64,000 nt of DNA from the NCBI RefSeq assembly GCF_900100715.1, contig NZ_FNCA01000005.1:1-64000 (forward strand), given 5' to 3'. Positions 31,715-48,642 of the stretch are shown here, one piece after another. Numbering within the stretch: position 1 is the first letter of the stretch; every line of letters starts with the position of its first letter. Below the pieces are notes generated by a model that worked only from the letters and a program-made list of their open reading frames with translations, ran no database searches and was not told the DNA's origin. The DNA comes from Methanolobus vulcani. Lineage in GTDB: Archaea; Halobacteriota; Methanosarcinia; Methanosarcinales; Methanosarcinaceae. Both the position numbers and the translations under genes were made by a program.

Positions 31715-33016
31715 TCAGATGGCATTTCGTCTGTCAACAACTTTCTGTGACTTTCCTGCTGTTCTTGGGATAGAACCTTTCTCTACAAGATCGACATTTG
31801 TCCGTATATTGAGCACACTCTTTAGTTCATTCTCTACATGCCTGCGGACAGCTGCAAGGTCTTTAAGCTCACCTGTAAAAGCGTTTTCCTCAAGTTCCAC
31901 CCTGACAGTGATCTCATCCAGCATCTTTGTATTCCTGTCAAGAAGTACCTGGAAATGTTCTGTAACTTCAGGAATGTCCACAATGACATCCTCTATCTGT
32001 GATGGGAATACATTTATACCTCTTACAATGAGCATGTCGTCTGCCCTTCCAAGAAGCCTTGAGATACGTGGTGTTGTACGACCACATGAACATTCGCTCT
32101 CAAGAAGGCGTGTAATATCCCCGGTCCTGTATCTGATAATTGGAAGTGCTTCCTTTGTCAGGGATGTGAGCACAAGTTCTCCTTTTTCACCTTCTGCTAC
32201 CTGCTCACCATTCTCATCAAGGACCTCAACATAGAAATGATCACTCCATATATGAAGGCCATCCTGTTCCTCACATTCAAAAGCAACACCCGGACCCATG
32301 AGCTCTGAAAGACCATAGGAATCATATGCTTTAATATTCAAAGAGTTTTCAAGCTGTTTTCTGGTATTTGCAGACCATGGCTCAGCACCAAAACAACCAA
32401 CTCTTAAGGAAAGCTTGTCCACAATATCCAATTCCCTGGCGGTTTCTGCCAGGTAAAGTGCATAAGAAGGAGTGCAGTGAACTGCAGTAACACCGAAGTC
32501 TATCATCATCTCAAGCTGCCTGGCTGTATTTCCAGTTCCACTTGGAACGGTCATGGCACCCATTCTTTCAGCGCCATAATGGAAACCAAGACCACCTGTA
32601 AAAAGTCCGTAGTTCACAGCATTCTGGAAAACATCACTGCTGTCAAGACCTGCCATTGTGAGATTTCGTGCCATGAGATCTGACCAGTTCTCGATGTCAT
32701 TCTTAGTATAACCAACAACTGTTGGTTTTCCGCTTGTACCTGAGGATGCGTGAATCCTTACTATTTCCTCTTTTGGTACTGCAAAAAGATTGAATGGATA
32801 ATTGTCTCTGAGATCAGTCTTCCTTGTTGTTGGTAATTTGCTGATATCATCAAGTGACTTTATATCATCAGGAGTTATTCCAAGTTGCCTGAACTTCTCC
32901 CTGTAGAATGGAACGTTATTATAGACTGCCGCAGCCGTCTTTTTCAAGCGTTTTAGTTGCAGTTCTGCACGTTCGTCTTTTTTCATAGTCTCGTATTTTG
33001 GCTGCCAGTATCTCAT
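31715..33016 (-). CDS. Phenylacetate-CoA ligase family protein
   Basis: 433 residues from the ATG at 33016 (ggagatg upstream); the frame extends further upstream without support. PaaK-type adenylate-forming motifs: HASSGTSGKPTVVGYT, YDSYGLSELMGPGVAFECE, IRYRTGDITRLL, GRTTPRISRLLGRADDM and the C-terminal TAGKSQKV. It activates an arylacetic or similar acid to its CoA thioester. In methanogens such ligases allow use of exogenous aryl acids for aromatic amino-acid synthesis via reverse oxidoreductases (family knowledge). Operon with marker 8. Confidence 0.85.
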   Translation of the reverse strand: MRYWQPKYETMKKDERAELQLKRLKKTAAAVYNNVPFYREKFRQLGITPDDIKSLDDISKLPTTRKTDLRDNYPFNLFAVPKEEIVRIHASSGTSGKPTVVGYTKNDIENWSDLMARNLTMAGLDSSDVFQNAVNYGLFTGGLGFHYGAERMGAMTVPSGTGNTARQLEMMIDFGVTAVHCTPSYALYLAETARELDIVDKLSLRVGCFGAEPWSANTRKQLENSLNIKAYDSYGLSELMGPGVAFECEEQDGLHIWSDHFYVEVLDENGEQVAEGEKGELVLTSLTKEALPIIRYRTGDITRLLESECSCGRTTPRISRLLGRADDMLIVRGINVFPSQIEDVIVDIPEVTEHFQVLLDRNTKMLDEITVRVELEENAFTGELKDLAAVRRHVENELKSVLNIRTNVDLVEKGSIPRTAGKSQKVVDRRNAI

Positions 33017-33486
33017 GGAAACATCTCCGCAAAATGTCCTTTCATAGGAGTACATCTTTAAGTGTTTAAATCTTTTGTAAATACATATCACTTTTTCGTC
33101 ATGCAGAGGACGCAATTTAACTCCACAGAAAGGGTAATGTGAATAATTAATGTGTATACTAAGGTATGCGTCAACATGACATGATACTACATGAATATAA
33201 TGGTTAGCATGAACTTCTATAATCAATATAGATTCGTCCATATCAGTGGCGATATGAGATTAGCATCGTAGAAAAATGGAACAAGATAGCTCAAATTAAA
33301 ACTAATAGTCCATTACTTTGGAAAATAGATCAAGTTTATACTTGTTGTAAAAACAAGGAATTCTACAAAACCAACATTAGGAAAGTTGACAGTCGATAAA
33401 ATGGCTCTGTCCTTAGATAAACATCTTTATGATTTACAAATCCAGCTCTGACACGGTGACTAATCGATTAGGAAAAAGTGATTGGC

Positions 33487-33509
33487 CCGATATCTATAGT
33501 TAATATCGG
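33487..33509 (-). terminator. Hairpin after the 39-codon gene
   Basis: Perfect 7-bp stem ccgatat/atatcgg (33487-33493 and 33503-33509). On the minus strand a T6 run (33519-33524) lies between the stop at 33530 and the hairpin, and another short T-run follows. Fits transcription ending here. Confidence 0.4.
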
Positions 33510-33529
33510 TACAACACAAAAAATAACTA

Positions 33530-33649
33530 TTAATCTGCAATGTATGTTTGCACTTTCTTTTCGCTTTTTCCTTCACTTAATCTTACTCCGTGCAATACAG
33601 GTGGTAATGGTGAACTAGAGAAAATCCGTTCTTCTTTTGTATCGGACAT
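33530..33649 (-). CDS. Putative 39-residue soluble peptide
   Basis: ATG at 33649, TAA at 33530. A good ribosome-binding site (aaaaggagt) lies about 9 bp upstream and a terminator-like hairpin follows. The peptide starts MSDTKEERIFSSSPLPPVLH and ends in a lysine-rich stretch and QTYIAD; no membrane segment. I do not recognise it. It may be a genuine small protein or the remnant of a longer gene. The rest of 33017-34177 is AT-rich and shows no other supported gene. Confidence 0.45.
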   Translation of the reverse strand: MSDTKEERIFSSSPLPPVLHGVRLSEGKSEKKVQTYIAD

Positions 33650-34098
33650 AGCTTTTTTACTCCTTTTAATCATGCTTTTTTAGTTTTTTACCGTTCTTCA
33701 ATAATGAATCGGCAATTGTATACTGACTATATAGTATAAAAAATTATGCATTTGTTTAAACATAATCTGCTTTCTCAGAAGATAAAATAATCATTCAACA
33801 AAAATCGACATTTATAATCCTTGAAATCAGACAAGTCAGATTAGATGGTTTTTTGTGAGTAACTTTAGTGCTTTATGCTTTTGTCTCTGAAACATCTTGT
33901 AATCCCAAAATAAACCACTATACCGCCTGTTTGTATTGCAAACCAATGACCACATTTTAGGCTTTAAAACAACATTTATTTCAATTGAAGATTAATCTAT
34001 AATACTCAAATAAGAACCCAAAAAGAAACGAAATGATAAATAAGACTCATAAATTACAAAAATTAAGAATGATCAAAAAATAGAAACAACTTGTATTG

Positions 34099-34170
34099 AA
34101 AAAAAGATAAAAAACAGTTCTCCGGGTAAAAAGATGATGACTACTCATACGAAGGACTTGACCCGGAGAA
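34099..34170 (-). terminator. Terminator of the methylamine operon
   Basis: 10-bp perfect stem ttctccgggt (34118-34127) / acccggagaa (34161-34170) starting 8 bp after the mtbA stop, then on the minus strand two long T-runs (T6 and T7) down to 34099. Confidence 0.7.
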
Positions 34171-34177
34171 ACTTAAA

Positions 34178-35197
34178 TCAGTATTTATGATTTCTTGCCA
34201 CTTCTATCATTGCCTGGAGATTTACAGTAGGTGTCTTGCTTACAATACCACATCCCGGTGCAAGCAGGCCTACACCTGCATCAATTATCTTTTGTGACTG
34301 CTCTCTAATCTTTTCAGGTGTCTGATTCCAGAGCATATTTACAGGATCAAGATTTCCTACAATAATAGCTTTTTTAACTTTGGATACAGCAGTTTCAACG
34401 TCAACATTTTGGTCAATACTTATTGCATCTACACCGGATGATTCCATCAGAGCAAGACCCTGGGTGGTGTCACCACAGATGTGTAATACTACAGGTACGT
34501 TAAGTTCATGCATTACATCACAAATTATCTTATGATAAGGAACGACGAACTTCTCGTAAAACTCAGCACCGATGAGCTGAGCACTTGCTGTCGGGTCAAT
34601 GATGACCATTGTATCGGCACCATTCTCTACCATCTTCTTTGCGTATGCAACATTGAACTCGGTTGTAAACTCCATGAGTGCAAGACCGAAAGACTCGTCT
34701 GTGAAAATAGCCATGAACCAGTCATCACCATTGATGTGCTGTGCCAGTGAGAAAGGACCTATCATGCTTCCCATTATAGGTAGTTTATCGCCATACTTGT
34801 CTGCCAGTAGTTTGATTGCCTCACAAACAACTCCAATCCTGCCGTAATCAAGGTTGTAACCCTTGAGTTTTTCAATATCTTCAACTGATTTTACAACATG
34901 GCCAACAACAGATGGTTGTTGCTCTTTTGTACCCTCTTTTATCTCACATCCAAAGAACTCAGCTTCTGCGGTTATATCAAAAGGTACACGCACAGCCTCA
35001 AATCCGACTACTGTGTGACCGGCTTCAGCAAGTGCTGCCATCTTTTTCGCATCATTATTAGCCTCAGGCCAGAAAGCACCGCAGGCTTCCATCTGCTCGA
35101 CGGTTCCGGTCTGGGTGACGGATATAGCTGGCATTCTATCAATTTGTTCGCCTCTGAGAGCGCGTGCTAATCTTTCTTTTGGTACATATTCTGTCAT
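34178..35197 (-). CDS. mtbA: Methylcobamide:coenzyme M methyltransferase MtbA (methylamine-specific)
   Basis: 339 residues, uroporphyrinogen-decarboxylase fold. Zinc ligands that activate CoM are present: H239 and C241 in VVLHICGD and C316 in LLAPGCGI. It moves the methyl group from methylated MtmC (or related corrinoid proteins) to coenzyme M. The methanol paralogue MtaA is similar; assignment to MtbA rests on overall resemblance and on the position at the end of the mtmCB operon. ATG preceded by caggagc. In Methanosarcina mtbA usually lies apart from mtmCB, so this linkage is notable. Confidence 0.85.
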
Positions 35198-35226
35198 AAA
35201 TGTAAGCTCCTGTAATTGAAATCAAG

Positions 35227-35709
35227 TTACAAATGAGGACCCCAAGTACATTTTTTTCCTGCTTTAACTATGGGAGAGATAATCTCAATACCTTTCGAAT
35301 ATTCCCACAATCCATGAATACTGCAACTTTCAACTGCTCTGAGATTTACAATTGCTGATCTGGTACCGCAAGTACCACATACACCAAAGCCATGAATTGT
35401 GCAATTTATAATCTCTCTCACAGAAATCATCTCTTCAGTACCCACTGCTTTAAAGACCGCTTCAGCTTTTTCATCAGAGACCTGTAGTTCCTCCTTTCCT
35501 ACAAGGTCACCGTTCAAGTACAGTTCTATCCATTGTATGTAATGTCCTTCTTCCATTACGTGAGGAACACTTCCCACAGTAACCTTTACATCAAAAGGTT
35601 CACCCGCTATCACCTCAGAAGGAGCCTCAATAAAAGGGACATGCTTTTTTTCCATCTCGGTAAGGTTATCATGATCCTTTGCTGTTTGAATATTGATATC
35701 TGAACTCAT
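35227..35709 (-). CDS. Superoxide-reductase (neelaredoxin/desulfoferrodoxin)-like protein with extra Cys/His motif
   Basis: 160 residues with an SOR domain. The iron-site ligands line up: H23 (EKKHVP), H50 and H56 (VPHVMEEGHYIQW), C129 and H132 (CSIHGLW). It lacks the N-terminal desulforedoxin domain. Unusually a second CxxH (C103, H106 in NCTIHG) and CGTCG (C111, C114) precede the canonical pair, as if the ligand strand were duplicated. It may detoxify superoxide or serve another redox role for the methyltransferase system, whose Co(I) corrinoid is oxygen-sensitive (inference). The ribosome-binding site is aaggtga. Confidence 0.75.
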   Translation of the reverse strand: MSSDINIQTAKDHDNLTEMEKKHVPFIEAPSEVIAGEPFDVKVTVGSVPHVMEEGHYIQWIELYLNGDLVGKEELQVSDEKAEAVFKAVGTEEMISVREIINCTIHGFGVCGTCGTRSAIVNLRAVESCSIHGLWEYSKGIEIISPIVKAGKKCTWGPHL

Positions 35710-35786
35710 AATTTCACCTTATTTATTCATTAATCACTAAATTAAACGTAAAATTCAAAAGAAATGTCAGTTAAGCTGACATTTCT

Positions 35787-36032
35787 TCAGTATTTGTAAT
35801 GGCTTACAGAATGGTATAACATAATCACAAAAAATGCGATTATGACTCCCAGTAAACTGAAAAAGCCCACAGGGTCCCATACGAACTGGATTGCCCCTGT
35901 CTCCGACCATCCAACAAGTACTGAACCCTGTATCTGTGTTGGTACGACCAGACAGATGAAAGCAAGCACAAAGATGAAAATGATGTCAAATGCCTCCATC
36001 ATCCAGTTTTTCTTTTCAGCGTCTTCACTCAT
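35787..36032 (-). CDS. Small membrane protein of the methylamine operon (two helices)
   Basis: 81 residues from the ATG at 36032 (aggtgaat upstream); an earlier in-frame start overlaps the preceding gene. After a charged start (MSEDAEKKNW) come two membrane helices: about 14-32 (IIFIFVLAFICLVVPTQIQG) and about 52-72 (VGFFSLLGVIIAFFVIML), ending HSVSHYKY. Unknown family. Its place between the permease and mtbA suggests an accessory subunit of transport or of a membrane complex. Confidence 0.65.
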   Translation of the reverse strand: MSEDAEKKNWMMEAFDIIFIFVLAFICLVVPTQIQGSVLVGWSETGAIQFVWDPVGFFSLLGVIIAFFVIMLYHSVSHYKY

Positions 36033-36042
36033 ATTATTCACC

Positions 36043-36306
36043 TCAATCATAATACTTGAAATCAAACATATGCTGTTTAATTGACTTTCGAACCTGCAGG
36101 TAACCTATAGTTTCAATACCCACTACCAATCCGAAGAAAAGGATGTATATTCCCCTAATTGCAGGTGCAACAGCTGAACCAGCCTCAGCTAGTATGGTAA
36201 AGACCACATAACCTTCAACAACGATCAGCAGTGCAATCGCCCCTAGTATCAGGAAAGTATCTTTCGCAAATGCACTATTGTATTTTGCTTCATTGATTCC
36301 ATCCAT
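36043..36306 (-). CDS. Small membrane protein of the methylamine operon
   Basis: 87 residues from the ATG at 36306; the ribosome-binding site gaggag overlaps the last codons of the permease gene, so translation is coupled. Two membrane helices: about 15-40 (TFLILGAIALLIVVEGYVVF) and about 48-68 (IRGIYILFFGLVVGIETIG), then a basic tail with KSIKQHMF. Not recognised. Cotranscribed with the permease and the next small membrane protein. Confidence 0.65.
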   Translation of the reverse strand: MDGINEAKYNSAFAKDTFLILGAIALLIVVEGYVVFTILAEAGSAVAPAIRGIYILFFGLVVGIETIGYLQVRKSIKQHMFDFKYYD

Positions 36307-36311
36307 TACTA

Positions 36312-37703
36312 TCACTCCTCAACATTGTGATGACTGGGCCTTGGCCAGCCCATTTCCCGTCCCCAATCAAATTGTTTCTGATGCTTCTTATGCTTCTTAT
36401 GGAAGTAGAAGTACGCTATCAAATAGAAAAGCAGAGCGAAAATAAGGTTGTATCTGTAACCCCAGAAAAGGGTGGACATGATTGTTATTGCAATTGCAAT
36501 TGCAAAGTAAGAGATCCATGGCTGAAGTGGGCTTACAAATGGACGCACCTTGTTAATGTGTGTTGGGAACATCTTTCTGAAACGTATCAGAGAGAATGGT
36601 ATCAGAACGTAACAAAGCAAACCTGATACAATAGAGAAAGTTATGACCTGGTCAAGATAACCGCTGAACGCAAAGGCTATTGCTATAGGCATGGTAAAAA
36701 TAACCGCTTTGTAAGGTGTCTGGTATCCAGGATGAACGGAAGCGAACCAATTTGATACGAAGTGATCCCTTGAAAGTGCAAACCATGACCTGGAAGAATC
36801 ACAGACACATCCGTTTGCACTGGAAAGACATGTCAGCAATGTTCCAAGAGCTAGAAGTGCAATGAGTACCGATACGCCGCTTACCTGTGCAGCCTCAAAG
36901 AGAGGATACACGGAAACTCCAAGACCTTCGGCAGGTATGTCAGATGGAAGTAGGCTTGCACATATAAAAAGTGTCATTGCAGCTCCGACCAGCAATGTAA
37001 TCATTCCTGCCTGTTGTCCCAAAGGCACTGCCCTTGATGGAGACTTACATTCCTCTGCGCACATTGCCGCTCCTTCAATGCCCAGGAAGAACCAGGGACC
37101 GAACTGCAAAGCAGCAAACAGACCTATCATGCCATTTGGCATTGCACCCTGGAAAAGATTCTCCGGATGAAGTTCAAAGACGCCGAATGTTCCTGAGAAG
37201 AAGAACAATATTATGGCGAGGAAAGCTATGGCGGTCATGAAGAAGTTAAGTGTGAGTGCAGCCACAACACCTCTATAATTAATGAATGTCAGAGTGGCAA
37301 TTACCAATAATGTAACGGGGAAAACCTGCAACTGCGGAAAAATTTCCTGCGCAATAAAAGCAACAACTATAGCATCAGCAGCCTCTAGGGCTATAAATTC
37401 CATATAAACCGCTAGCCCAACACTAGCTGCTGCACCGGGTCCTACAAACAACCTTGCCCAATCATAAGGTCCTCCTGCCAGTTTAGTGGCGGATCCCAGT
37501 TCACTTGCACACAGAGAAATCATAACGTACATTGTCCCCGCTACAAGCATTGCCAACAGGGCACCAAGAATTCCTCCTTTTGCAACGGTGAAGTTCCACC
37601 CCATGAACTCACCAACAAGAACTATTCCCACTCCCAATGCCCAGACGTGGTAAGGTCTTAGGGTCTTGACAAGTCCGGGTGATTCTGTAACTTCATTGGT
37701 CAC
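36312..37703 (-). CDS. mtmP: APC-family amine permease, probable monomethylamine transporter
   Basis: 463 residues with about 12 membrane helices of the amino acid-polyamine-organocation superfamily (GIVLVGEFMGWNFTVAKGGI; PYDWARLFVGPGAAASVG; LEAADAIVVAF). In Methanosarcina a homologous permease, MtmP, follows mtmCB, which fits this context. The start is a GTG at 37703 with gaggtgat upstream, 4 bp after the stop of a 36-codon gene. The C-terminus is basic (HKKHKKHQKQ). Substrate assignment is from context. Confidence 0.75.
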   Translation of the reverse strand: MTNEVTESPGLVKTLRPYHVWALGVGIVLVGEFMGWNFTVAKGGILGALLAMLVAGTMYVMISLCASELGSATKLAGGPYDWARLFVGPGAAASVGLAVYMEFIALEAADAIVVAFIAQEIFPQLQVFPVTLLVIATLTFINYRGVVAALTLNFFMTAIAFLAIILFFFSGTFGVFELHPENLFQGAMPNGMIGLFAALQFGPWFFLGIEGAAMCAEECKSPSRAVPLGQQAGMITLLVGAAMTLFICASLLPSDIPAEGLGVSVYPLFEAAQVSGVSVLIALLALGTLLTCLSSANGCVCDSSRSWFALSRDHFVSNWFASVHPGYQTPYKAVIFTMPIAIAFAFSGYLDQVITFSIVSGLLCYVLIPFSLIRFRKMFPTHINKVRPFVSPLQPWISYFAIAIAITIMSTLFWGYRYNLIFALLFYLIAYFYFHKKHKKHQKQFDWGREMGWPRPSHHNVEE

Positions 37704-37707
37704 ATAA

Positions 37708-37818
37708 TCACCTCTTCAATTTCTTGGATGTTTTGCTCGCATCAAGCAAGACCCACCCAATCAATGCAAAAGCCAGCAAGTATATTATTCCATTAATGAT
37801 AGTCCAATATCCGTCCAT
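37708..37818 (-). CDS. Putative 36-residue membrane peptide in the methylamine operon
   Basis: ATG at 37818 and TGA at 37708, too short for usual gene calling. A near-perfect ribosome-binding site (aaaggaggt) lies 8 bp upstream. It begins MDGYWTIINGIIYLLAFALI, forms a single membrane helix (residues about 6-25) and ends in a basic tail (DASKTSKKLKR), so N-out/C-in topology is expected. It lies between the mtmB terminator and the permease, 4 bp before the permease GTG. It may be a small regulatory or structural subunit of the permease. Confidence 0.65.
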   Translation of the reverse strand: MDGYWTIINGIIYLLAFALIGWVLLDASKTSKKLKR

Positions 37819-37869
37819 CACAAAACCTCCTTTTAATGATCTTAAACGGTTTTCCATTCCCTTCCCTGG

Positions 37870-37899
37870 AAAAAAATGCCAGCGAAATTGATCGCTGGC
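37870..37899 (-). terminator. Intra-operon hairpin terminator after mtmB
   Basis: 8-bp perfect stem gccagcga/tcgctggc with 6-nt loop (37878-37899), followed on the minus strand by a T7 run (37876-37870). It starts 17 bp after the mtmB stop and probably lets only part of transcription continue into the permease-mtbA genes. Confidence 0.7.
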
Positions 37900-37916
37900 G
37901 TATTATTCCGGAGGCA

Positions 37917-39293
37917 TTAGAAAGTAAGACCGAACTCCTCTAGCTTCTTGCGTGCGCCGTCGTAGACCTTCATGTACTCATCAGTTGGTGTTACGGTAGC
38001 TACATCGTAACATTCCTGGAAGGTCTTGCCTGCTGGTGCATTCGCATAGTTGGCCTCGTAGGAGCTTACAAGAAGATCAAGGACCTTATTTACATCTGCA
38101 ATGTCCATTCCTGCTGTTGCCCTTGCAACCTCTCCCATCATCCTTGCTTCCATACCGGTTGTCTTATCCTGAACGACACCCTTTGCAGCTGCAACACCGG
38201 AGAGGATCTCACGGCCGGATGCTGTATCAGTGATAGACTGAGCGGATGCTTCAAGCAAGCACATCTCAGTACATGGACCTGCACATGGATAGTACTGGTT
38301 ACCCGAGAGCATGTCAGTGAACTCAGAGATGGTTGCACATGTCCATCCAGCGATCATAAGGGTCTCACGAGTATTGGTTGAGCCCCAGCGGATATGGACT
38401 GGACCGTCAAGATGCCAGCTTGCATTGCTCATTACAAATGCATTGATGTGGGTTGCGATATCAACGATAGCTGTCTCTTCTATGCCACCGGCATAGCCAC
38501 CAAATATAGGCATCTGTTCATCCATGATGATGTCACTATTACCCTGATAGTGTGCCATGACACTGATAGCATCAAGGTCGATCTTAAGCTCATTGAGCTG
38601 GGATACTTCATGACTATCACTGCAGGCCATACCACCGGCACAGTCAGCAGAAATATTTCCCTGAGCGGACAGGGAAGTCTCTGGTCCCTATATACCTATG
38701 CCTGGCCTTCCAGCCATTGCTGCTGCTGTTTTAATTAACCTGGTCTCGGTCTTTGCTGCAAGCACCTCGTATGGGCTCTTTGGAATTGGTGGTTTGCCAC
38801 GGACTGTCATCATGACACCGTTGACAATTGTGTCAACTTCCTTCTCAAGAGCATAGCTCATGTGAACCGGCATGAACATATCCTCGGAAATTGGTGAACC
38901 GGTAGGACCACCCTGAACTATTGGCTTTCTCTTATCCCCAACATTTCTTTTCTGGACCCTGACAGCATCCCTGCCGGTACCGAGCACGAATTCTCTCTGA
39001 ACGTTGTTGATAGCATCCCAGATCTCATCCTCGGTGTACTTTACCACACGGCCTGTATCTGTACAGAAAATACCACAGTCAAGGAGCATCTCGAAACCTG
39101 CCTTGAAGAGGTTTTCCATCATGTCTTTATCAGTTGGTACGAACTCACCCTTAAAGTCAAGGTTGTATTTCTGCTTGAGCTCCATTGCCTTCATCGGGAT
39201 GGTCATAAGGTCCCAGTCATCCTGGGTCATTTTCTGACCTTTCTTTGCACGCTCATAGAATTCAAAACAATCTAATGATCTTGAAAATGTCAT
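37917..39293 (-). CDS. mtmB: Monomethylamine:corrinoid methyltransferase MtmB, with in-frame UAG pyrrolysine codon
   Basis: 458 codons, the same length as characterised MtmB. Codons 1-201 (MTFSRSLDCFEFYERAKKGQ ... AAAMAGRPGIGI) are followed by TAG at 38690-38688, then the frame continues GPETSLSAQGNISADC and on to KKLEEFGLTF. Codon 202 is exactly the known pyrrolysine site; Pyl forms the adduct that presents methylamine to Co(I) MtmC. Conventional annotation would split this into two genes. The start is the ATG at 39293 with agagggtga upstream, 16 bp after mtmC. A hairpin follows the UAG, and a terminator follows the stop. Confidence 0.96.
38657..38676 (-). promoter_or_regulatory. PYLIS-like stem downstream of the pyrrolysine UAG
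   Basis: Perfect 7-bp stem ttccctg/cagggaa with a 6-nt loop, beginning 11 nt downstream of the UAG in the mtmB mRNA. A PYLIS stem-loop at this site has been described in Methanosarcina mtmB; its requirement for UAG readthrough in archaea is debated. Confidence 0.6.
38688..38690 (-). other. In-frame UAG encoding pyrrolysine (codon 202 of mtmB)
   Basis: Plus-strand cta reads TAG on the coding strand. There are 201 sense codons before it and 256 after it to the TAA at 37919-37917, all matching MtmB. Confidence 0.95.
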
Positions 39294-39308
39294 TCTTTTC
39301 ACCCTCTA

Positions 39309-39959
39309 TTACTTCATAAGACTGAGTGCCACACGGGCTGCATCTGCTGCATTCTCTGCGGTTGCATCTGCTCCGATCTCTGCGATCCATCCGTCTGAAA
39401 CTGGTGCTCCACCGAACATGATCTTAACAGAGTCTCTAAGACCTTCTTCCTCAATGGCAAGTACTGTGTCCTTCTGCCCAAGCATGGATGTTGTCATAAG
39501 AGCAGAACCTGCAAGGAGTATCTTGCCACCCTTGAGTTTTTTGATTTCATCAACAATGGTGTCATTTGGAACGTCCACACCGAGATCCACTATCTTGAAA
39601 CCATTTGCACCGAGCATGGTTGATACCAGACGATGTCCGATGTCATGGATGTCCCCTTCCTGTACGAAAGTAATGGCTGTTCCAACACCTTCATCGGTCT
39701 GTTCCTTCTCGAGCTCAGGTGTCAGGATTTCCATTGCTGCATTCATCGCCTTTGCAGACATCATGATCTGTGGCAGATAGATCTCTGCTGCCTCGAACTT
39801 GTCTCCGACTATTTTCATGCCTACTGAGAGGCCACCATCTATTGCTTCAACAGCGCTGATGCCTGCATCTAGTGCTTCTTTGGCAGCTTCGGCACAGCCG
39901 TTTATGTTCTGAGTGACAATTGTGTCTTTGAGTTTGTTTAAGATGTCTTGTTTTCCCAT
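39309..39959 (-). CDS. mtmC: Monomethylamine corrinoid protein MtmC
   Basis: 216 residues from the ATG at 39959 (aaggtga upstream). The N-terminal four-helix cap is at about 1-88, then the B12-binding Rossmann domain with DIHDIG (D103, H105, G108), where the histidine is the lower cobalt ligand, followed by SALMTTSML and the nucleotide-loop region MFGGAPVS. It accepts methyl from MtmB and passes it to MtbA. First gene of the operon; the intergenic region upstream is 470 bp, with a probable long leader. Confidence 0.93.
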   Translation of the reverse strand: MGKQDILNKLKDTIVTQNINGCAEAAKEALDAGISAVEAIDGGLSVGMKIVGDKFEAAEIYLPQIMMSAKAMNAAMEILTPELEKEQTDEGVGTAITFVQEGDIHDIGHRLVSTMLGANGFKIVDLGVDVPNDTIVDEIKKLKGGKILLAGSALMTTSMLGQKDTVLAIEEEGLRDSVKIMFGGAPVSDGWIAEIGADATAENAADAARVALSLMK

Positions 39960-40430
39960 AGATTCACCTTTGATATTGTTGTACAATTGGTTTTACAGCA
40001 TTGCAACTATCCGATGCAAATACTATTGAAATAACCATTTGGTGAGGAGCTATCCGAAAGGATAACTTCTACAAAAGCATGAATTACCTTGCAACATATA
40101 GCATAATCCATACCGATTTCCCAACAATTACGACACATATCCCCTCAATCAGTAATTCAACAGGGACAACGATATTTCATTTTGGAACAGGTTTCTAAAA
40201 GAGGTATGTGCTCTGCAGAAGATATGTGAATTGTCACATGCCTTGTGAATTGTAAATATCAATGTGATTTGGCATATAAATTAAGTTAATATAATGGCAG
40301 ATCAAAAAGTTATTAGTAATACATAACGGGCACTAGAATTACTGAACGATATTTTTGACCAATGGATTTAAAGTAACCGAGAATCAAAACTTTCCCAAAT
40401 ACAGGGATATTACAGCAGAAGTGGTATACT
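39960..40430. promoter_or_regulatory. Divergent regulatory region between mtmC and the first Msr-like regulator
   Basis: 470 bp without a supported gene. For mtmC, the TATA-like aatttatatg on the minus strand (about 40272-40282) would give a leader of roughly 290 nt, as known for methanogen methyltransferase operons. The same AT box can be read as catataaat toward the regulator. Three direct repeats lie beside it. Confidence 0.5.
40225..40272. repeat. Three direct repeats at 19-bp spacing (candidate operator)
   Basis: tgtgaattgt at 40225-40234 and 40244-40253 and the variant tgtgatttgg at 40263-40272 recur with an exact 19-bp period, about two helical turns, next to the TATA-like box. A likely site for an Msr-type winged-helix regulator. 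Confidence 0.5.
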
Positions 40431-41234
40431 ATGGGTATGAAAACGTCATTGACAAATACTATTTGGTTTTCGGAAAAGAGGAAGAATCTTTTGTTACTAT
40501 TAAATGAAGGTGAGAGAGATATTGAGCAAATAAAAAAATCACTTAATGTCACAACCCGGTCAATTATGCCTCAGATAAAGATACTAAAACATGAAAAACT
40601 CATAAAACAGGAACAAGAAAATTTCAGCCTGACGACAATAGGAGAAATAATCGTTAACAATATGCTGCCATTTCTTGACACATCACGAATTGTTGAGGAA
40701 AATAAGGATTTCTGGACAAGCAGAAATTTTGATGCGATACCAGCACACCTTTTTAGCAGGATAAGGGATCTTGGACACTATTATCTTATAGAACCCGATA
40801 TTAATCATATGTTTGAACTTCCCAGGGAATTTGTAGATAACATACCTAAATCAAAAAAGATCATGACCTTTGTCTCATATCTTCATCCTTCATTTCTTAC
40901 TCTGTATCTTAAAACAGCCCTTACAGGAGCGGAAATTTCACTTTTTCTTTCAGAAGCGGCTCTGAACAAAATACGAAAAGAGTATCTCGAACAATTCAAC
41001 GAATTGATTGGCATGGACAATACAGCTATCTTTCTTTGTGAAGAAAACCCCAGGATACCAATGATAACGGTAACTGACTGGTTTTGCTACATCTGTCTCT
41101 TTAATGAAGAAGTGCGGTATGATCATAGGGACATCATAAGCTTTGATGAAAGCTCACTTGAATGGTGTCATGAATTGTTTGAGTATTACAGATGTAATTC
41201 AAAAGAGCTCTGTGAAATTACAAATAACGTTTAG
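40431..41234 (+). CDS. Msr-like winged-helix regulator with FilR1 (DUF1724) domain, first copy
   Basis: 267 residues. A winged helix-turn-helix at about 8-85 (SEKRKNLLLLLNEGERDIEQ and a following wing) and a FilR1_middle/DUF1724 region at about 130-250, closing DHRDIISFDESSLEWCHELF. Msr proteins of this architecture control methanol, methylamine or methylsulfide methyltransferase genes in Methanosarcina (family knowledge). Divergent from mtmC and followed by a paralogue, so it probably controls the mtm operon. Confidence 0.8.
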   Translation: MGMKTSLTNTIWFSEKRKNLLLLLNEGERDIEQIKKSLNVTTRSIMPQIKILKHEKLIKQEQENFSLTTIGEIIVNNMLPFLDTSRIVEENKDFWTSRNFDAIPAHLFSRIRDLGHYYLIEPDINHMFELPREFVDNIPKSKKIMTFVSYLHPSFLTLYLKTALTGAEISLFLSEAALNKIRKEYLEQFNELIGMDNTAIFLCEENPRIPMITVTDWFCYICLFNEEVRYDHRDIISFDESSLEWCHELFEYYRCNSKELCEITNNV

Positions 41235-41261
41235 TATACCAAATAGTTGGGGATAAGGAAC

Positions 41262-42038
41262 ATGGGATCATCATTAACCGAAACAATCTGGTTCTCTGAA
41301 AAAAGAAGGAAAATACTCCTGCTATTACTAGACGGTCCAAAAAAACCTGAAGAAATGAAGAAAGCTTTCGGCGTCGCATGGCGTTCATTAATACTGCCTC
41401 TTAAGGAATTGAAAGAGGCGGAACTTGTTTGCAATCCTGGGGAAACATATGAACTATCTTACATTGGAAAGCTTATAGCAGAAACAGTAAAGCCGATTAA
41501 TAGTATCTTAAAACTCTTTGAAAAGGATATTGACTACTGGGCTAAAAGAGATCTGGATGTAATACCAAATTACCTTCTGGACAGGATAGGAGAAATTGAA
41601 GATTATATAATTGCAGAACCTGATCTGAATGATATGTTCGAGCCGCCTGAGCAGTTTACAGAACGACTTCTACATTCAAAGTACGTGCATTCCGTATTCT
41701 CTATCTATCATCCTCTATATCCACCACTTTATAGTGAGCTCTCAGAGAAAGGGGCCGAAGTATCAATTATTCTTACGCAATCTGTGATGCAAAGAATGCT
41801 TGAAGATAAACATGAAGAACTGGATAAAATGAAAGTTTCAAAGAATACGAAATTATTCCTGTACGAAGAAGATTTATGTCCACCCTCAATTGTGATTGCT
41901 GATAACTTGTTTTCGGCGAGCTTTTTCAATATCAGTGGAATCTATGACCACAGGGACATAATGGCTTTTTCTCAAAGCTCATTGAAGTGGGGAGAAGAAA
42001 TGTATGAACATTACAAAAAGATGGCAACTGAAATATAA
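41262..42038 (+). CDS. Msr-like winged-helix regulator with FilR1 (DUF1724) domain, second copy
   Basis: 258 residues from the ATG at 41262 (ggggataaggaac upstream); an in-frame TTG at 41247 is less likely. Winged helix at about 1-80 (TETIWFSEKRRKILLLLLDG), FilR1 region at about 120-245, ending DHRDIMAFSQSSLKWGEEMY. Clearly a tandem duplicate of the preceding gene, 27 bp downstream, so the two form an operon. Paired Msr regulators acting together on one methyltransferase operon are known in Methanosarcina (MsrD and MsrE). Confidence 0.8.
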   Translation: MGSSLTETIWFSEKRRKILLLLLDGPKKPEEMKKAFGVAWRSLILPLKELKEAELVCNPGETYELSYIGKLIAETVKPINSILKLFEKDIDYWAKRDLDVIPNYLLDRIGEIEDYIIAEPDLNDMFEPPEQFTERLLHSKYVHSVFSIYHPLYPPLYSELSEKGAEVSIILTQSVMQRMLEDKHEELDKMKVSKNTKLFLYEEDLCPPSIVIADNLFSASFFNISGIYDHRDIMAFSQSSLKWGEEMYEHYKKMATEI

Positions 42039-42095
42039 AGTTCAATATGGCAAGACATTGTGTGTCGTATGAAAGGGACTGGAAGGTGCATGTGA

Positions 42096-44954
42096 TTGAA
42101 AAAGAATGAGATGACAATAAAAACCAAACTGATTCTGTATATAGTTGTCAGTGTTTTTCTTGTACTCATCGTTTCAACTGCAGTCAGCATCGAAACTGTA
42201 ACAGAACAACAAAAAGAACTTGCATATCTTCAATCCGTAGAAATGGCAAGGGACTATGCAAATCAGTTCGATGGTGACATGCAGGCAAATATGGCTATTG
42301 CACAAACCATTGCCAAAACAATGGAAATGTATACTGCTGCTGACAGAAACGAAGTGAATAATATTCTCAAAAATGTTCTTGAAACTGATCCTTCTCTAAC
42401 AGGAGTGTATGTAGGATATGAACCCAATGCTTTTGACGGGAAGGACAACGAATATATCAATGCTCAATACCATGATTCTACCGGGAGATTCATACCCTAC
42501 TGGAATACTATCCAGGGAAAAATAAGAGTCGAACCTCTGGTGAACTATGACATCCAAGATTACTATCAACTTCCAAAGATAACACACGAAAACACTGTTA
42601 CTGAACCTTATTATTACCAGGGCATCTTCATGGTAAGCTATGACGTGCCTATTTTTAAAGATGGTGAATTCGTAGGTATTGCAGGTGTTGATGTATCACT
42701 AGATTACATCGGTGATGTTGTTAGTGACATAAAAGCCTTTGAAACAGGATATGCATTTGTAACAGGAAACACCGGTATTCTGGTATCTCACCCTGAATAC
42801 AAAGAAGGAATTGGAACACATACTCTTTATGATTTTGGAAATCCTGAAATATCAAAATCAGCCGACGATATCAAAAAAGGAAGAGGAGGAAGTGTTGAAA
42901 CTATCGATCCTGTAACAGGTGAAGAAGTAATAATGTTCTACGAACCCGTGAAAACAGGTAATTACTCTTTTGTGTTAGTGGTTCCAAAAGAAGAGATGTT
43001 TGCCGGAGTCACCAAACTCAGAAATACTCTGGTTATTATTTCTACTATTTCAATATGTTTTATGGGCATTGTCTCTTACCTGATAGCAACATCGATAACT
43101 TCTCCTATAGATGAGATAGTTGAGAACTTTAGAAATATTGCCCAAGATGCTGTTGATGGTAAATTGGATACAAGAGCAAAAACAGATGTAGAAAGAGATT
43201 TCAAAGAAATTCCAATCGGACTTAATATGATACTTGATGCTGTGATAGCACCTATACGGGAATCTATCAGAGTTACAAATGCACTTGCAAAAGGAGAGCT
43301 TGGAGCCCGTACCGAATTGGAACTGAAAGGGGAATTCAAGCATCTTGGAGATACATTAGATGATTTTGCAGATTCTTTGAACAATATTATTGCAGATTCC
43401 AATAACGTACTTACTGCCATACAGAACAATGATTTTTCCCGTAATGTTCGAGTACATGGAATGGGAGATTTTAATATCCTCACTGAAGGGATTGAAGAAA
43501 CAAGAAACTCATTGGATCTGGCTATTCATGAACAAAAAAAAGCAGAGAAGGCTCTAAGAGATTCTGAAAGAAAATTCAGGACTTTGTTTGAAAGTCTTAA
43601 TGATGTAATATATCTTACAGATTTAGAAGGGAATATTCTGGAAGTTAATGAAATCGCATGTAAAAGAATGGGATATAGCCATGATGAATTCCTTTCTTTG
43701 ACTTATATGGACATAGATGCTTCAAATCGTGGCAAAGATTTTCTCACAGTACTCAAAAAACTGTGTAAAATGAAGAGTAATCTTCTGGAAACAATTCACA
43801 TGAGAAAAGATGGTACTGTCTTTCCAGTAGAATTAAGCAGTCGTATGATAGGGTTCGATGGACATAAAGCAATCATTACTATTGCAAGAGACATTAGTAA
43901 AAGAAAACAAACCGAGGAAGAACTCAAAAAATATGCTGACGAACTTAAGCATTCCAACGAACTTAAGGAAGAAATGGAGAGTATAATCAATAACAGTCCT
44001 GTAATAGCATTCAAATGGAAGACAGAAACTGATTGGCCAGTGGAGTTCGTTTCAGAGAATATCACAAAACTTGGCTATACTGTAGAAGATTTCACATCTA
44101 ACCGCCTTAAGTATGCTGACATTATACACCCTGATGATAGTGAAAGAACTCACTTGCACATCTCCAACTATTATATGAAAAAAGAGGCTGAACTAAACTA
44201 CGAATACAGAATATACACCAAATCAGGTGATATAAAATGGGTAGATGAAAGAACGTTTACAAGACGTGATAATTACGGCAGGATTACATTGCAGGGAATA
44301 ATTCTGGACATCACCGAACGTAAAAAGGTAGAGGAAGCACTTATTCAGGCAGAGAACATACGCAAGAAAGAGATACATCACCGTGTAAAGAACAATTTAC
44401 AGGTAATTTCAAGTTTGCTCTATCTTGCATCTGATAATTTTGAGGAACAGGACGTAATTGAGGCCTTTTTGGATAGCCGTAACCGTGTGCGTTCGATGGC
44501 TCTGATACATGAAGAACTATATCAATCCAATGATATGACAAGTGTTGATTTTTCTGATTACACAGAGAAATTGATGACTTATCTATCCAGATCATGCAAA
44601 AATGGAAAGAAAGATATTAAGCTTGTTTCTAAAATAGAGGATGTCTTTCTGAATGTTGATACAGCTGTTCCTCTTGGCATGATAATCAATGAACTTGTTT
44701 CAAACTCACTGAAACATGCTTTCCCCGAAATGGAAGAAGGGGAGATAAGTGTGGAACTCAAAGTCCTGAAAAATAATTTTTTATTGAAAATAAAAGATAA
44801 TGGAATTGGTATTTCTCAGGATATAGATTTCAGAAATACGGAATCTCTAGGTTTACAGCTTGTGACAACGTTGGTTGACCAGATCGATGGCACTATCGAG
44901 CTGAACTCAATTCACGGAACAGAATTCATCATAAATTTTTCAGAGAGGAACTAA
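42096..44954 (+). CDS. Membrane sensor histidine kinase, Cache-HAMP-PAS-PAS-HisKA_2-HATPase
   Basis: 952 residues. TM1 at about 10-32, an extracellular double-Cache domain (about 35-300; YFQ-rich, VSYDVPIFKDGEFVGIAGVD), TM2 at about 308-330, HAMP and a HAMP-like region (about 332-480), PAS (about 490-610), PAS (about 625-740), then the HisKA_2 phospho-acceptor EIHHRVKNNLQVISSLLYLA and an ATPase domain (ELVSNSLKHAFPE, DNGIGIS). I favour the TTG at 42096 because ggaaggtg lies 8 bp upstream; the next in-frame ATG is 42111. The response-regulator gene starts 1 bp after its stop. Confidence 0.87.
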   Translation: MKKNEMTIKTKLILYIVVSVFLVLIVSTAVSIETVTEQQKELAYLQSVEMARDYANQFDGDMQANMAIAQTIAKTMEMYTAADRNEVNNILKNVLETDPSLTGVYVGYEPNAFDGKDNEYINAQYHDSTGRFIPYWNTIQGKIRVEPLVNYDIQDYYQLPKITHENTVTEPYYYQGIFMVSYDVPIFKDGEFVGIAGVDVSLDYIGDVVSDIKAFETGYAFVTGNTGILVSHPEYKEGIGTHTLYDFGNPEISKSADDIKKGRGGSVETIDPVTGEEVIMFYEPVKTGNYSFVLVVPKEEMFAGVTKLRNTLVIISTISICFMGIVSYLIATSITSPIDEIVENFRNIAQDAVDGKLDTRAKTDVERDFKEIPIGLNMILDAVIAPIRESIRVTNALAKGELGARTELELKGEFKHLGDTLDDFADSLNNIIADSNNVLTAIQNNDFSRNVRVHGMGDFNILTEGIEETRNSLDLAIHEQKKAEKALRDSERKFRTLFESLNDVIYLTDLEGNILEVNEIACKRMGYSHDEFLSLTYMDIDASNRGKDFLTVLKKLCKMKSNLLETIHMRKDGTVFPVELSSRMIGFDGHKAIITIARDISKRKQTEEELKKYADELKHSNELKEEMESIINNSPVIAFKWKTETDWPVEFVSENITKLGYTVEDFTSNRLKYADIIHPDDSERTHLHISNYYMKKEAELNYEYRIYTKSGDIKWVDERTFTRRDNYGRITLQGIILDITERKKVEEALIQAENIRKKEIHHRVKNNLQVISSLLYLASDNFEEQDVIEAFLDSRNRVRSMALIHEELYQSNDMTSVDFSDYTEKLMTYLSRSCKNGKKDIKLVSKIEDVFLNVDTAVPLGMIINELVSNSLKHAFPEMEEGEISVELKVLKNNFLLKIKDNGIGISQDIDFRNTESLGLQLVTTLVDQIDGTIELNSIHGTEFIINFSERN

Positions 44955-44955
44955 A

Positions 44956-45363
44956 ATGGAAGAAATTGAGATTGCTCCCAAAATACTTGTAGTTGAAGAT
45001 GAAAATATCGTTGCTCTGGAACTAAAGAAAAGGCTGAAAAAGCTTGGGTATCAGGTTCCAAGTGTTGCAGCGTCCGGGATAGAAGCAATTAACAAAGCTG
45101 AAGGGTTCCTTCCAGATCTTGTGATTATGGATATCAGACTAAAAGGAGATATGGATGGAATTCAAACAGCACAGATTATTCATGAAAGGTTCAATATACC
45201 AGTAATATATCTTACTGCTCATTCTGACGATGAAACCCTCAAAAGGGCAAAGAAGACAGAACCGTACGGATACATTTTAAAACCTTTCGAAGAGGATGAA
45301 CTTCGAACAGCAATTGAAATAGCAGTATATAAACACCAGATGGAAATGAGTTCCAAAAAATAG
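44956..45363 (+). CDS. Single-domain response regulator
   Basis: 135 residues, only a receiver domain. Acidic pocket E14/D15 (VVEDEN), phosphorylated D59 (VIMDIRLKG), the Thr in YLTAHS and the Lys in YGYILKPF are all present. It has no output domain, so it must act by protein contact or as a phosphate relay. It directly follows the Cache kinase and is the only response regulator in the window. Confidence 0.9.
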   Translation: MEEIEIAPKILVVEDENIVALELKKRLKKLGYQVPSVAASGIEAINKAEGFLPDLVIMDIRLKGDMDGIQTAQIIHERFNIPVIYLTAHSDDETLKRAKKTEPYGYILKPFEEDELRTAIEIAVYKHQMEMSSKK

Positions 45364-45410
45364 ATTGATTTTGTGCTAGAATTTATAAGGTTATCTTAGA
45401 TAGCTATATT

Positions 45411-45431
45411 TTACCGCTTTTTTTACTTTTT
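45411..45431 (+). terminator. Oligo-T terminator after the kinase-response regulator pair
   Basis: T7 (45418-45424) and T5 (45427-45431) runs about 55 bp after the response-regulator stop, with no ORF continuing; typical of archaeal factor-independent termination. Confidence 0.5.
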
Positions 45432-45612
45432 AGTCTTAGGCAAGTATATACTAAAGATGCAGTGTTTTGAAGATTCATCAGAGTATTAAGCATTATCACA
45501 CCCTTTGACAATTCACACATCATTGTCAGAATAGTACAGAATTATGCTATATAGAATTCGTTCTTAGTAATTTTTAGTCCTGATTTCAAGGGTCTATATC
45601 TATAATTTGTAG

Positions 45613-45697
45613 GGAGGCTGAACAACCTCCTTTTCACTTCCCAAAGCTTAGGTGTCATCTGCTTAAAATGCATCTCCACGTAACAGATGACACCTAA
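45613..45697. repeat. Hairpin pair including a 14-bp perfect inverted repeat
   Basis: ttaggtgtcatctg (45648-45661) is repeated in perfect inversion at 45684-45697 with a 22-nt loop. Just before it is a smaller hairpin ggagg/cctcc (45613-45630). Neither sits at a gene end: the nearest genes are the response regulator (ends 45363) and pylB (starts 45855). It could be the remnant of an insertion element or a structured RNA. No tRNA-Pyl gene is seen in this spacer (45364-45854). Confidence 0.45.
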
Positions 45698-45854
45698 CAA
45701 AATACAAACTATGCAAAGATGCGTGTGAAATGTGTCGAATATTCCTTGAGCTTTATATTGACTATACAAATCATCGATGAATTTTACACAACTACCAACA
45801 CAGGAAGCAGAATCATACTACAAAGGAATAAGCATTAACCTGTGAGGTGGAACC

Positions 45855-46946
45855 ATGATAAAGGGTATTAATTACTGGGATCCTGACATTATTGCTGAAA
45901 ATATAATAAACGGACAGAAGCTCACCGACAACAACCTTAGAGAGCTCCTTTACCTGACAGAAGAGGAAGATATAGAGAAGCTGCAATATGTTGCAAGAAA
46001 AGTGAGAGATCACTATTTCGGGAACAAGGTCTTCCTCTACAGCTTCGTTTACTTCTCAACCCACTGCAAGAACAACTGTGCTTTCTGCTATTACAATAAG
46101 TGTAACAACATACAGCGCTATCGCCTTAATCTTGAGGAGATACGCAGCATAGCAAGGACGATCAAGAATGAGAACATCCACATGGTAGATCTTACCATGG
46201 GAGAGGATCCTTATTTCCACAATAATCCTGAAAAGTTCGTTGATGTCGTAAGGGCAGTAAAGGAAGAAACAGGACTTCCTATTATGATCTCTCCTGGAGT
46301 CATAGATGACAGGACTCTCAGCAGACTCCACGAGAGTGGAGCCAATTTCCTCGCCCTCTATCAGGAAACACATGACGAAGATCTCTACCGGAAACTGAGG
46401 GTCGGACAATCCTTCGATGAAAGGAATCATGCCAGGGAATTTGCCAGAACCAACGGTTACTGCGTTGAAGATGGAATTCTTACAGGTGTTGGAAACGATA
46501 TTGAATCAACCATAATCTCACTTCGCGGAATGCAAAAGGGGCAGCCTGACATGGTCCGTGTCATGACCTTTGTTCCACAGGAAGGAACTCCTCTTGAACT
46601 TGTGTCACAGGAATCCAGCCTTTCCGAACTGAAGATAATCTCAGTTCTCAGACTGATGTTCCCTGACAAACTCATACCAGCATCCCTTGACCTTGAAGGA
46701 ATCGATGGCATGGTCCACCGCCTGAATGCAGGTGCGAATGTTGTCACTTCCATAATATCCGCAGATTCCTCACTTGAAGGCGTTGTCAACTATGACAGGG
46801 AACTTGAGGAAAGGGACAGGGACTCAAAGAGCGTCATCAAGCGCCTGAGGTCCATGGGCATGGAACCTGCAAGCCAGGATGAGTTTAACAGGATCATCGA
46901 AAAGCAGCAGGTAGCTCCAGTAAGAATCCCGGTGGCTGCAATATGA
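45855..46946 (+). CDS. pylB: Methylornithine synthase PylB (radical SAM)
   Basis: 363 residues, full PylB length. The [4Fe-4S]/SAM motif is C71-x3-C75-x2-C78 (HCKNNCAFCYY). Other PylB segments: VDLTMGEDPYFHNNP, LPIMISPGVIDD, LALYQETHDEDLYRKLRVGQ, EDGILTGVGNDIESTI and RLIPASLDLEGIDGMV-like ASLDLEGIDGMVHRLNAGA. It isomerises lysine to 3-methylornithine, the first step to pyrrolysine. The ribosome-binding site is gaggtgg. pylT and pylS, which normally precede it, are absent here. Confidence 0.93.
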   Translation: MIKGINYWDPDIIAENIINGQKLTDNNLRELLYLTEEEDIEKLQYVARKVRDHYFGNKVFLYSFVYFSTHCKNNCAFCYYNKCNNIQRYRLNLEEIRSIARTIKNENIHMVDLTMGEDPYFHNNPEKFVDVVRAVKEETGLPIMISPGVIDDRTLSRLHESGANFLALYQETHDEDLYRKLRVGQSFDERNHAREFARTNGYCVEDGILTGVGNDIESTIISLRGMQKGQPDMVRVMTFVPQEGTPLELVSQESSLSELKIISVLRLMFPDKLIPASLDLEGIDGMVHRLNAGANVVTSIISADSSLEGVVNYDRELEERDRDSKSVIKRLRSMGMEPASQDEFNRIIEKQQVAPVRIPVAAI

Positions 46947-47236
46947 CAACAATAGGTATAATCGGTGGCAAACTCCATGGTTTTGAGGTCACTTACCTTG
47001 CACACAAGGCAGGCATGAATGTAGTGCTCGTGGACCGCAGGGAAAAGCCCCTGATACGCAAGGTTGTTGATGCTTTTCACTGCTTTGATGTTGTCAGGGA
47101 ACCTGAAAAGCTCATCCAACTCTCAGAAAATGTGGATGCTATAATCCCTGTGAACGAGAACCTACCCAATAACAAGACAACAGATGCTTGCACATTAACA
47201 TACATGATAAATAGATTCCTGCACATAAATTTATAA
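46943..47236 (+). pseudogene. pylC: Truncated pylC (N-terminal fragment of 3-methylornithine-lysine ligase)
   Basis: 97 codons overlapping pylB by ATGA. The first 75 or so match the PylC N-terminal domain (TTIGIIGGKLHGFEVTYLAH, VLVDRREKPLIRKVVDAF, AIIPVNENL). After PVNENL similarity stops and an unrelated tail of about 22 residues leads to a stop. The ATP-grasp catalytic domain (about 280 residues) is missing from the window, so no ligase activity is possible. A complete copy must exist elsewhere if the UAG in mtmB is read. Confidence 0.85.
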
Positions 47237-47352
47237 TTTAGACTGAATTATTATAATTCCATGTACAAAGAACAGATTTTCATGTACATAATTTAATTTT
47301 TGATGTCATAACGGTTTAAACAGTGTACATCCAGTCTTGCACTTAGATAGTG

Positions 47353-48642
47353 ATGAGATCTTCTAAAAAACGTCAGATACTTGCAGGAACTACACTTATT
47401 CTGATGCTCCTGTTTACTATTAACATAAGTTCAGCGACGAGTGGTGATATATTCACCGATATAAACTCGAATTATGAACTTATTCCTGAGCAAGGAATAG
47501 TAAAAGTATCAAAGGAGATCACATTCCACAACAACAATTCTGAGACAAAGTACTGGAGAGGATACTACTCCAATTACAATTCCTATCTTCCTGACGGAGC
47601 GCTCAACATCAAGGTTTTTGATGAAGAGAACAACATGGCATTCAGAAAATCAGAAGATGGATATTATGTCTTTTACTTCAACAACAAGGTCTGGTATGAA
47701 GAAAGCTACACATTCCATGTAGATTATGAAATAAAAGTCAATGAGAACACAGCTGTATTCTCATTGAATGAATACGGTGACAATGTTGAAGTAACCCTGG
47801 AAGTACCAGATGATTATGATACACACCTGAGCAGAGATGACTACAGAGTAGAAGAGAAATTGTATTCCAGTGTCTACATTTTCGAAAAGGGGCAAAGCTG
47901 GGATAAAGCATGTAAAGTAAATTCCGTAAGATCTTCACCACGTATTACACTAAAAGAGACAGCTCACCTTTCAGAACGCGATGTAGACATCGAAGTCAGA
48001 TACTGGGAAGGCGAAGAGCAGTGGGCACAGGACACAATGGAAACAACAATTGAAAGCCTTAAACTGCTTGAAGATAATTGGGGAATTGAATATCCTCCTG
48101 AGTACAACATTACTATAACGCAGGCAAATCTGACAGAGACCGGTGGTTATGGTGGATATAACCAGGGCAGGAACGGGATCTGGCTGCTTTATACATCCAA
48201 TCATGGAATACTTATACACGAGCTTTCACATTACTGGACACGTGCCTGCAACTTTGATCAGTTGTGGATGGATGAAGGCTATGCGGACCTGTACACATAC
48301 ATAGTACTCAGCAAAATGGAACCTGATGAAGCTGAGGCAAGACGTGACCGTTTCCTCAGGAAATACGAAGATCTTCATGATGAGAATGACTTCCCACTTT
48401 CGGACTGGAGTACACCGCAAACCCTCAACAGCGACACTGAAGAGCGTGTGGATTATGGATACAAGAAAGCATTTTCCCTGACATACACACTATATGAGAC
48501 TATAGGAGTGGAGTCACTTCAGCAGGCAAACAGGGAGTTTGCAGAAAATTCCGGAGGAATTGACAATACTGATTTTCTTGAGATCATCGATTCTGTTTCA
48601 TCTTCAGACACAGAATTTGTAGAAGACTATCTGTATAACTAA
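47353..48642 (+). CDS. Secreted gluzincin-type metalloprotease-like protein
   Basis: About 429 residues. Signal peptide at about 1-28 (ILAGTTLILMLLFTINISSA), a beta-rich N-terminal domain (about 30-200) and a protease domain with the zinc motif HELSH and the downstream glutamate in LWMDEGYADLY. The spacing from the second His to this Glu is 14 residues, shorter than the 18 typical of M1 peptidases, so it is a divergent M1/M61-like family. No C-terminal anchor; probably exported. Start at the ATG 47353 or the GTG 47350. Confidence 0.7.
   Translation: MRSSKKRQILAGTTLILMLLFTINISSATSGDIFTDINSNYELIPEQGIVKVSKEITFHNNNSETKYWRGYYSNYNSYLPDGALNIKVFDEENNMAFRKSEDGYYVFYFNNKVWYEESYTFHVDYEIKVNENTAVFSLNEYGDNVEVTLEVPDDYDTHLSRDDYRVEEKLYSSVYIFEKGQSWDKACKVNSVRSSPRITLKETAHLSERDVDIEVRYWEGEEQWAQDTMETTIESLKLLEDNWGIEYPPEYNITITQANLTETGGYGGYNQGRNGIWLLYTSNHGILIHELSHYWTRACNFDQLWMDEGYADLYTYIVLSKMEPDEAEARRDRFLRKYEDLHDENDFPLSDWSTPQTLNSDTEERVDYGYKKAFSLTYTLYETIGVESLQQANREFAENSGGIDNTDFLEIIDSVSSSDTEFVEDYLYN

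Follow-up and report, generated by a model that had tools for sequence, protein, structure and literature searches.

The isolated pylB and broken pylC genes of this Methanolobus genome very likely result from a fairly recent rearrangement, in which a block of methylamine genes and the start of a pyl operon would have been copied or moved together. The genome probably carries three pyl copies, of which this fragment would be a redundant one, because other pylSBCD-ramA clusters presumably supply pyrrolysine. It represents no new kind of system and is the outcome of an ordinary genome rearrangement. The window, i.e. the whole stretch of 64,000 nucleotides that was analysed, is part of contig C9 (237 kb) of the studied genome (G000), a draft of 2.95 Mb in 20 contigs with a completeness estimate of 99.98%. 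It was compared with 24 other Methanolobus genomes (25 with G000), among them Methanolobus vulcani B1d (G023; locus L041), which is the nearest named relative among the loci compared and has a PylB 93% identical to that of the window.

The pylB gene (45855-46946, plus strand) had been described in a first-pass annotation as looking intact. It is indeed a complete open reading frame of 363 amino acids without internal stops, and its product matched positions 7-347 of the methylornithine synthase profile NCBIfam TIGR03910 with 549.7 bits (cut-off 348.2 bits). Residues 10-347 aligned with the solved methylornithine synthase PylB (PDB 3t7v), of which the window protein is a full-length homologue that differs by ordinary divergence only. 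The radical SAM motif CxxxCxxC is present as CKNNCAFC, and a Pfam Radical_SAM match was obtained as well. The annotated ATGA overlap with pylC was also found, pylC beginning at 46943 and pylB ending at 46946. However, this pylC (46943-47163, plus strand) is a 5' fragment of about 74 codons, the rest of which, including the ATP-grasp part, is missing. Only positions 1-77 of the 374 of the PylC profile TIGR03909 were matched (104 bits, below the cut-off of 248 bits), so that the ATP-grasp part lies outside the match and the product does not qualify as a PylC family member. Likewise, its likeness to the solved PylC (PDB 4ffl) covers residues 1-75 of 363, and everything after residue 75 is absent.

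DNA homology to pylC of M. vulcani B1d stops at 47163. From 47158 rightward the sequence corresponds to the intergenic region by an M1-family peptidase gene, which is a different locus in other Methanolobus. The breakpoint therefore falls in a 6-bp overlap, GAACCT (47158-47163), that is common to pylC and the peptidase leader. The remaining tail of the pylC reading frame (47164-47236, plus strand) is unrelated to PylC and homologous to the non-coding stretch that separates a ligase gene from the peptidase gene in G005 and G023; judging from this homology, the extra residues are read from former intergenic DNA. Thus the first-pass annotation was correct in stating that PylC has lost its ATP-grasp domain and gained an unrelated tail, and the comparison with relatives that it proposed identified the site near 47160 as a rearrangement breakpoint at which pylC is joined to the M1-peptidase leader. 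A frameshift or assembly slip at about 47160, which it had considered as a way of restoring pylC, was rejected, since relatives carry the DNA beyond 47158 at another locus and no single frameshift restores the gene.

In G005 and G023 a gene for a PaaK-like phenylacetate-CoA ligase (31715-33055 in the window, minus strand; named from its sequence, no family search) is directly adjacent to the M1-peptidase gene (47350-48642, plus strand; Pfam Peptidase_M1), whereas about 14 kb separates the two in G000. Similarity to the relatives extends to 33067 on the ligase-gene side and resumes at 47158 on the peptidase side. As the two flank matches lie 24 bp apart in G005, this comparison indicates that about 14 kb is inserted between the genes in G000. 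The inserted block (33068-47163, about 14.1 kb) has an uncertain left end, between 33068 and about 33565, the latter being where similarity to the M. vulcani B1d region downstream of mtbA starts. Among the reading frames and repeats listed, a mobile element was not recognised at either block end, nor was a mobile element or long repeat found that would explain the move.

Most of the block consists of methylamine genes and regulators. On the minus strand lie an mtbA-like methylcobamide:CoM methyltransferase gene of the URO-D family (34178-35197; Pfam URO-D, 268.7 bits), which occupies the same position relative to mtmB in G023 and G020, followed by genes for a desulfoferrodoxin-domain protein (35227-35709; Pfam Desulfoferrodox) and an amino-acid/amine permease (36312-37703; Pfam AA_permease), the monomethylamine methyltransferase gene mtmB (37917-39302) and the corrinoid protein gene mtmC (39309-39986; 86% to M. 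vulcani B1d, in syntenic position). With one in-frame TAG at codon 205 of mtmB and an Rfam PYLIS_1 match at 38591-38690, the UAG-dependent operon that had been reported close to pylB is real. On the plus strand, 40431-45363 encodes two HTH regulators, of which the first is FilR1-like, together with a sensor kinase of 952 aa and a response regulator, all named by synteny and Pfam. The order in M. vulcani B1d is mtbA, desulfoferrodoxin gene, permease, mtmB, mtmC, HTH, HTH, 947-aa kinase, regulator and pylS, and from there pylB, pylC, pylD, ramA, polD small subunit, signal peptidase, cdc6 and mfnA. Its segment just upstream of pylS is 87.6% identical over 4920 bp to 40431-45346 of the window, and 45808-47163 (end of pylS to start of pylC) shows 89.8% DNA identity. 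The mtbA-to-regulator block directly precedes pylS in G002, G004, G007, G009, G015, G020 and G023 and is absent from this place in G001, G005, L042 and L043. The window thus resembles the Methanolobus pylSBCD-ramA cluster in the order pylS end, pylB, pylC start and in the upstream regulators and mtmBC. It differs in that only the last codons of pylS remain, pylC is cut, pylD and ramA are missing and the right neighbour is new. From the cassette of pylT, S, B, C and D, only pylB is whole at this locus. Anatomy, junctions and syntenic source were in this way all seen directly.

The first-pass annotation had reported both pylS and pylT as missing upstream. For pylS this holds for the body of the gene, but its last approximately 11 codons and stop persist (45808-45845, plus strand). 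In the 46 nt leading up to the pylB ATG, which cover ...ESYYKGISINL-stop, 41 positions are identical to M. vulcani B1d, and identity drops to 10/46 in the preceding 46 nt. The suggestion that a corrected assembly might place pylS directly upstream was not borne out, the rest of the gene being gone. No pylT is present at the locus either, but this is the normal state in the genus and not a sign of decay. Across the Methanolobus genomes checked, the distance between pylT and pylB is at least about 8 kb, the two are often on different contigs, and pylT is never found beside pylS, so its absence carries no weight. G000 has a single pylT (C19:2927-2951). In Methanosarcina and Methanococcoides loci, unlike in Methanolobus, pylT precedes pylB by about 1.5-2 kb.

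A pylS-leader region with a TATA-like box (45410-45650, plus strand) has been retained. It is 79.6% identical over 235 bp to the sequence upstream of pylS in M. bombayensis and now lies 0.2-0.45 kb upstream of pylB. Within the gap between response regulator and pylS, the TATA-like box is conserved together with a small stem-loop (GGGAGG...CCTCC) at 45540-45650, with counterparts at L043 8154-8382 and L041 about 8000-8140. This segment, kept though pylS is gone, perhaps represents an independent small transcript or a terminator. The edge of the pylS deletion is marked by a perfect 14-bp inverted repeat with a 22-nt gap (45648-45697; TTAGGTGTCATCTG/CAGATGACACCTAA), of which no further copy was found in the genome. 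With this repeat being single-copy and no recognisable transposase among the ORFs listed from the sequence at the left junction and the pylS deletion, a mobile element was rejected as the vehicle.

Because the 20-contig draft demonstrably breaks at pyl repeats, C9 might be suspected of being chimeric at 47160, with the true pylC continuing elsewhere. Such an artefact would require a false join on each side of the block and, in addition, the pylS deletion. Moreover, C9 runs through the joins for 237 kb, far from contig ends, and another pylS of this genome, on contig C16, lacks the block that usually stands in front of the gene. A chimeric contig is thus improbable.

Two further pylS genes were seen directly, at the ends of contigs C16 (L015 1-1430) and C4 (L016 1-1424). 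They are identical for 818 bp inward from the contig ends and both stop at the same base. Contigs C18 and C20 each end in a 3' part of ramA; the two parts are identical over 512 bp and again stop at one and the same base. In M. vulcani B1d the stretch between these two bases measures 4.1 kb and contains pylB, pylC, pylD and the 5' part of ramA. That these four contig ends fall on just two positions indicates that two further pylSBCD-ramA clusters probably exist, whose shared core of about 4.1 kb is missing from the draft; this would explain why no pylD was found. In the search for a complete pylTSBCD cluster that had been proposed, pylT and the two additional pylS were recovered, but profile searches of the G000 assembly found no full pylC or pylD, both of which would fall in the unassembled repeat. 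No other PylB above the cut-off was obtained from the assembly. It is highly improbable that the window pylB is for this reason the only one of the cell and cooperates in trans with pylC and pylD at other sites: the assembly lacks these two genes as well, and in M. vulcani B1d the missing stretch carries pylB together with them. The window pylB, the only one assembled, is probably a third copy.

The pylS gene on C16 directly follows its other flank (mtm, a second kinase and permeases) without the block, as in G001 and G005. Two pylS hits were obtained in G000 only, and in none of the other 24 genomes of the genus. The N-terminal parts of the C16 and C4 genes differ strongly (dN 0.22, dS 0.62) and their C-terminal parts are identical, a pattern that points to gene conversion or to an origin by recombination. 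The C4 pylS branches outside the group of M. vulcani and its closest relatives. As only one pylT was found, the two synthetases may share one tRNA.

Does the fragment still have a function? Judged from its reading frame, the pylB may still make methylornithine synthase and might, as suggested in the first-pass annotation, raise the methylornithine supply; it could have been kept because an extra synthase raises the pyrrolysine supply, the pylC stub being a passenger. The frame is intact, with a single private change (L10P) at 218 columns that are invariant in 13 other PylB, the TATA-like leader segment still lies upstream, and dN/dS on the window branch is about 0.08-0.11. The step catalysed by PylB has moreover been described as rate-limiting (PMC8225853), which makes a dosage role possible. 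However, the dN/dS of the branch is elevated about twofold over most sister branches and that of the dead pylC stub is similarly low, so that these figures cannot prove present function; selection was rejected as such a proof. Retention for function seems unlikely. The further proposal of three pyl loci in one methanogen, with a solo pylB retained to boost the dosage of the rate-limiting step beside a relocated UAG-dependent mtm operon and sensor kinase, is decidedly doubtful. None of the papers searched mentions both Methanolobus and pylB. The clean PylB frame and the low dN/dS of both pylB and the dead stub point to a recent break.

Synonymous divergence of the window pylB is 0.39 to G005 and 0.47 to M. 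vulcani B1d, and that of the kinase gene 0.42 to M. vulcani B1d. The corresponding values for native genes on C18 are 0.50 and 0.67 (polD small subunit) and 0.36 and 0.56 (cdc6), so that the fragment lies near the native range (0.36-0.67), in it or slightly below. In favour of a horizontal acquisition of the block from another Methanolobus lineage, the trees unite the native C18 genes with G005 (support 99), whereas the window pylB falls outside, its position having weak support (34-49). The divergence near the native range speaks against such an import, which appears rather unlikely, and together with the weakly supported pylB tree it favours movement within the genome over import from a near relative.

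The break would then have arisen as follows. The block of about 14 kb upstream of pylS (mtbA to response regulator), along with the beginning of the pyl operon, would have been copied or transferred into the gap between the PaaK-like ligase and M1-peptidase genes. Its right end would have been cut inside pylC, probably in an end-joining type of event at the 6-bp shared sequence, and pylS would have been deleted except for its last approximately 11 codons, then or simultaneously. If the other clusters are complete and presumably supply pyrrolysine, the fragment, with a dead pylC stub and an intact pylB frame, would be redundant, and its pylB is predicted to be lost eventually. The annotation had offered a duplicated, decaying cluster or a rearrangement breakpoint as alternatives. 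Both appear to apply together, the junction near 47160 being a breakpoint, but the copy number is probable only.

In G000, pyl genes appear to have undergone duplication, relocation and breakage along with the amine genes dependent on them. Each of the other Methanolobus genomes examined has a single pyl cluster; the unusual feature of G000 is probably its three-fold pyl content. Because pylBCD can be concealed in collapsed repeats of a draft assembly, care is needed when genes of the pyrrolysine pathway are scored as absent. Finally, an amine-type permease on C16 is immediately preceded by a short ORF (L015 about 2004-2151) that contains an in-frame TAG, MSKETTIKEFMDHEVHENCLVNGI-TAG-VENGNPMGMPLFCKTSLKYCGVSA, and possibly encodes a small pyrrolysine-containing peptide or leader.
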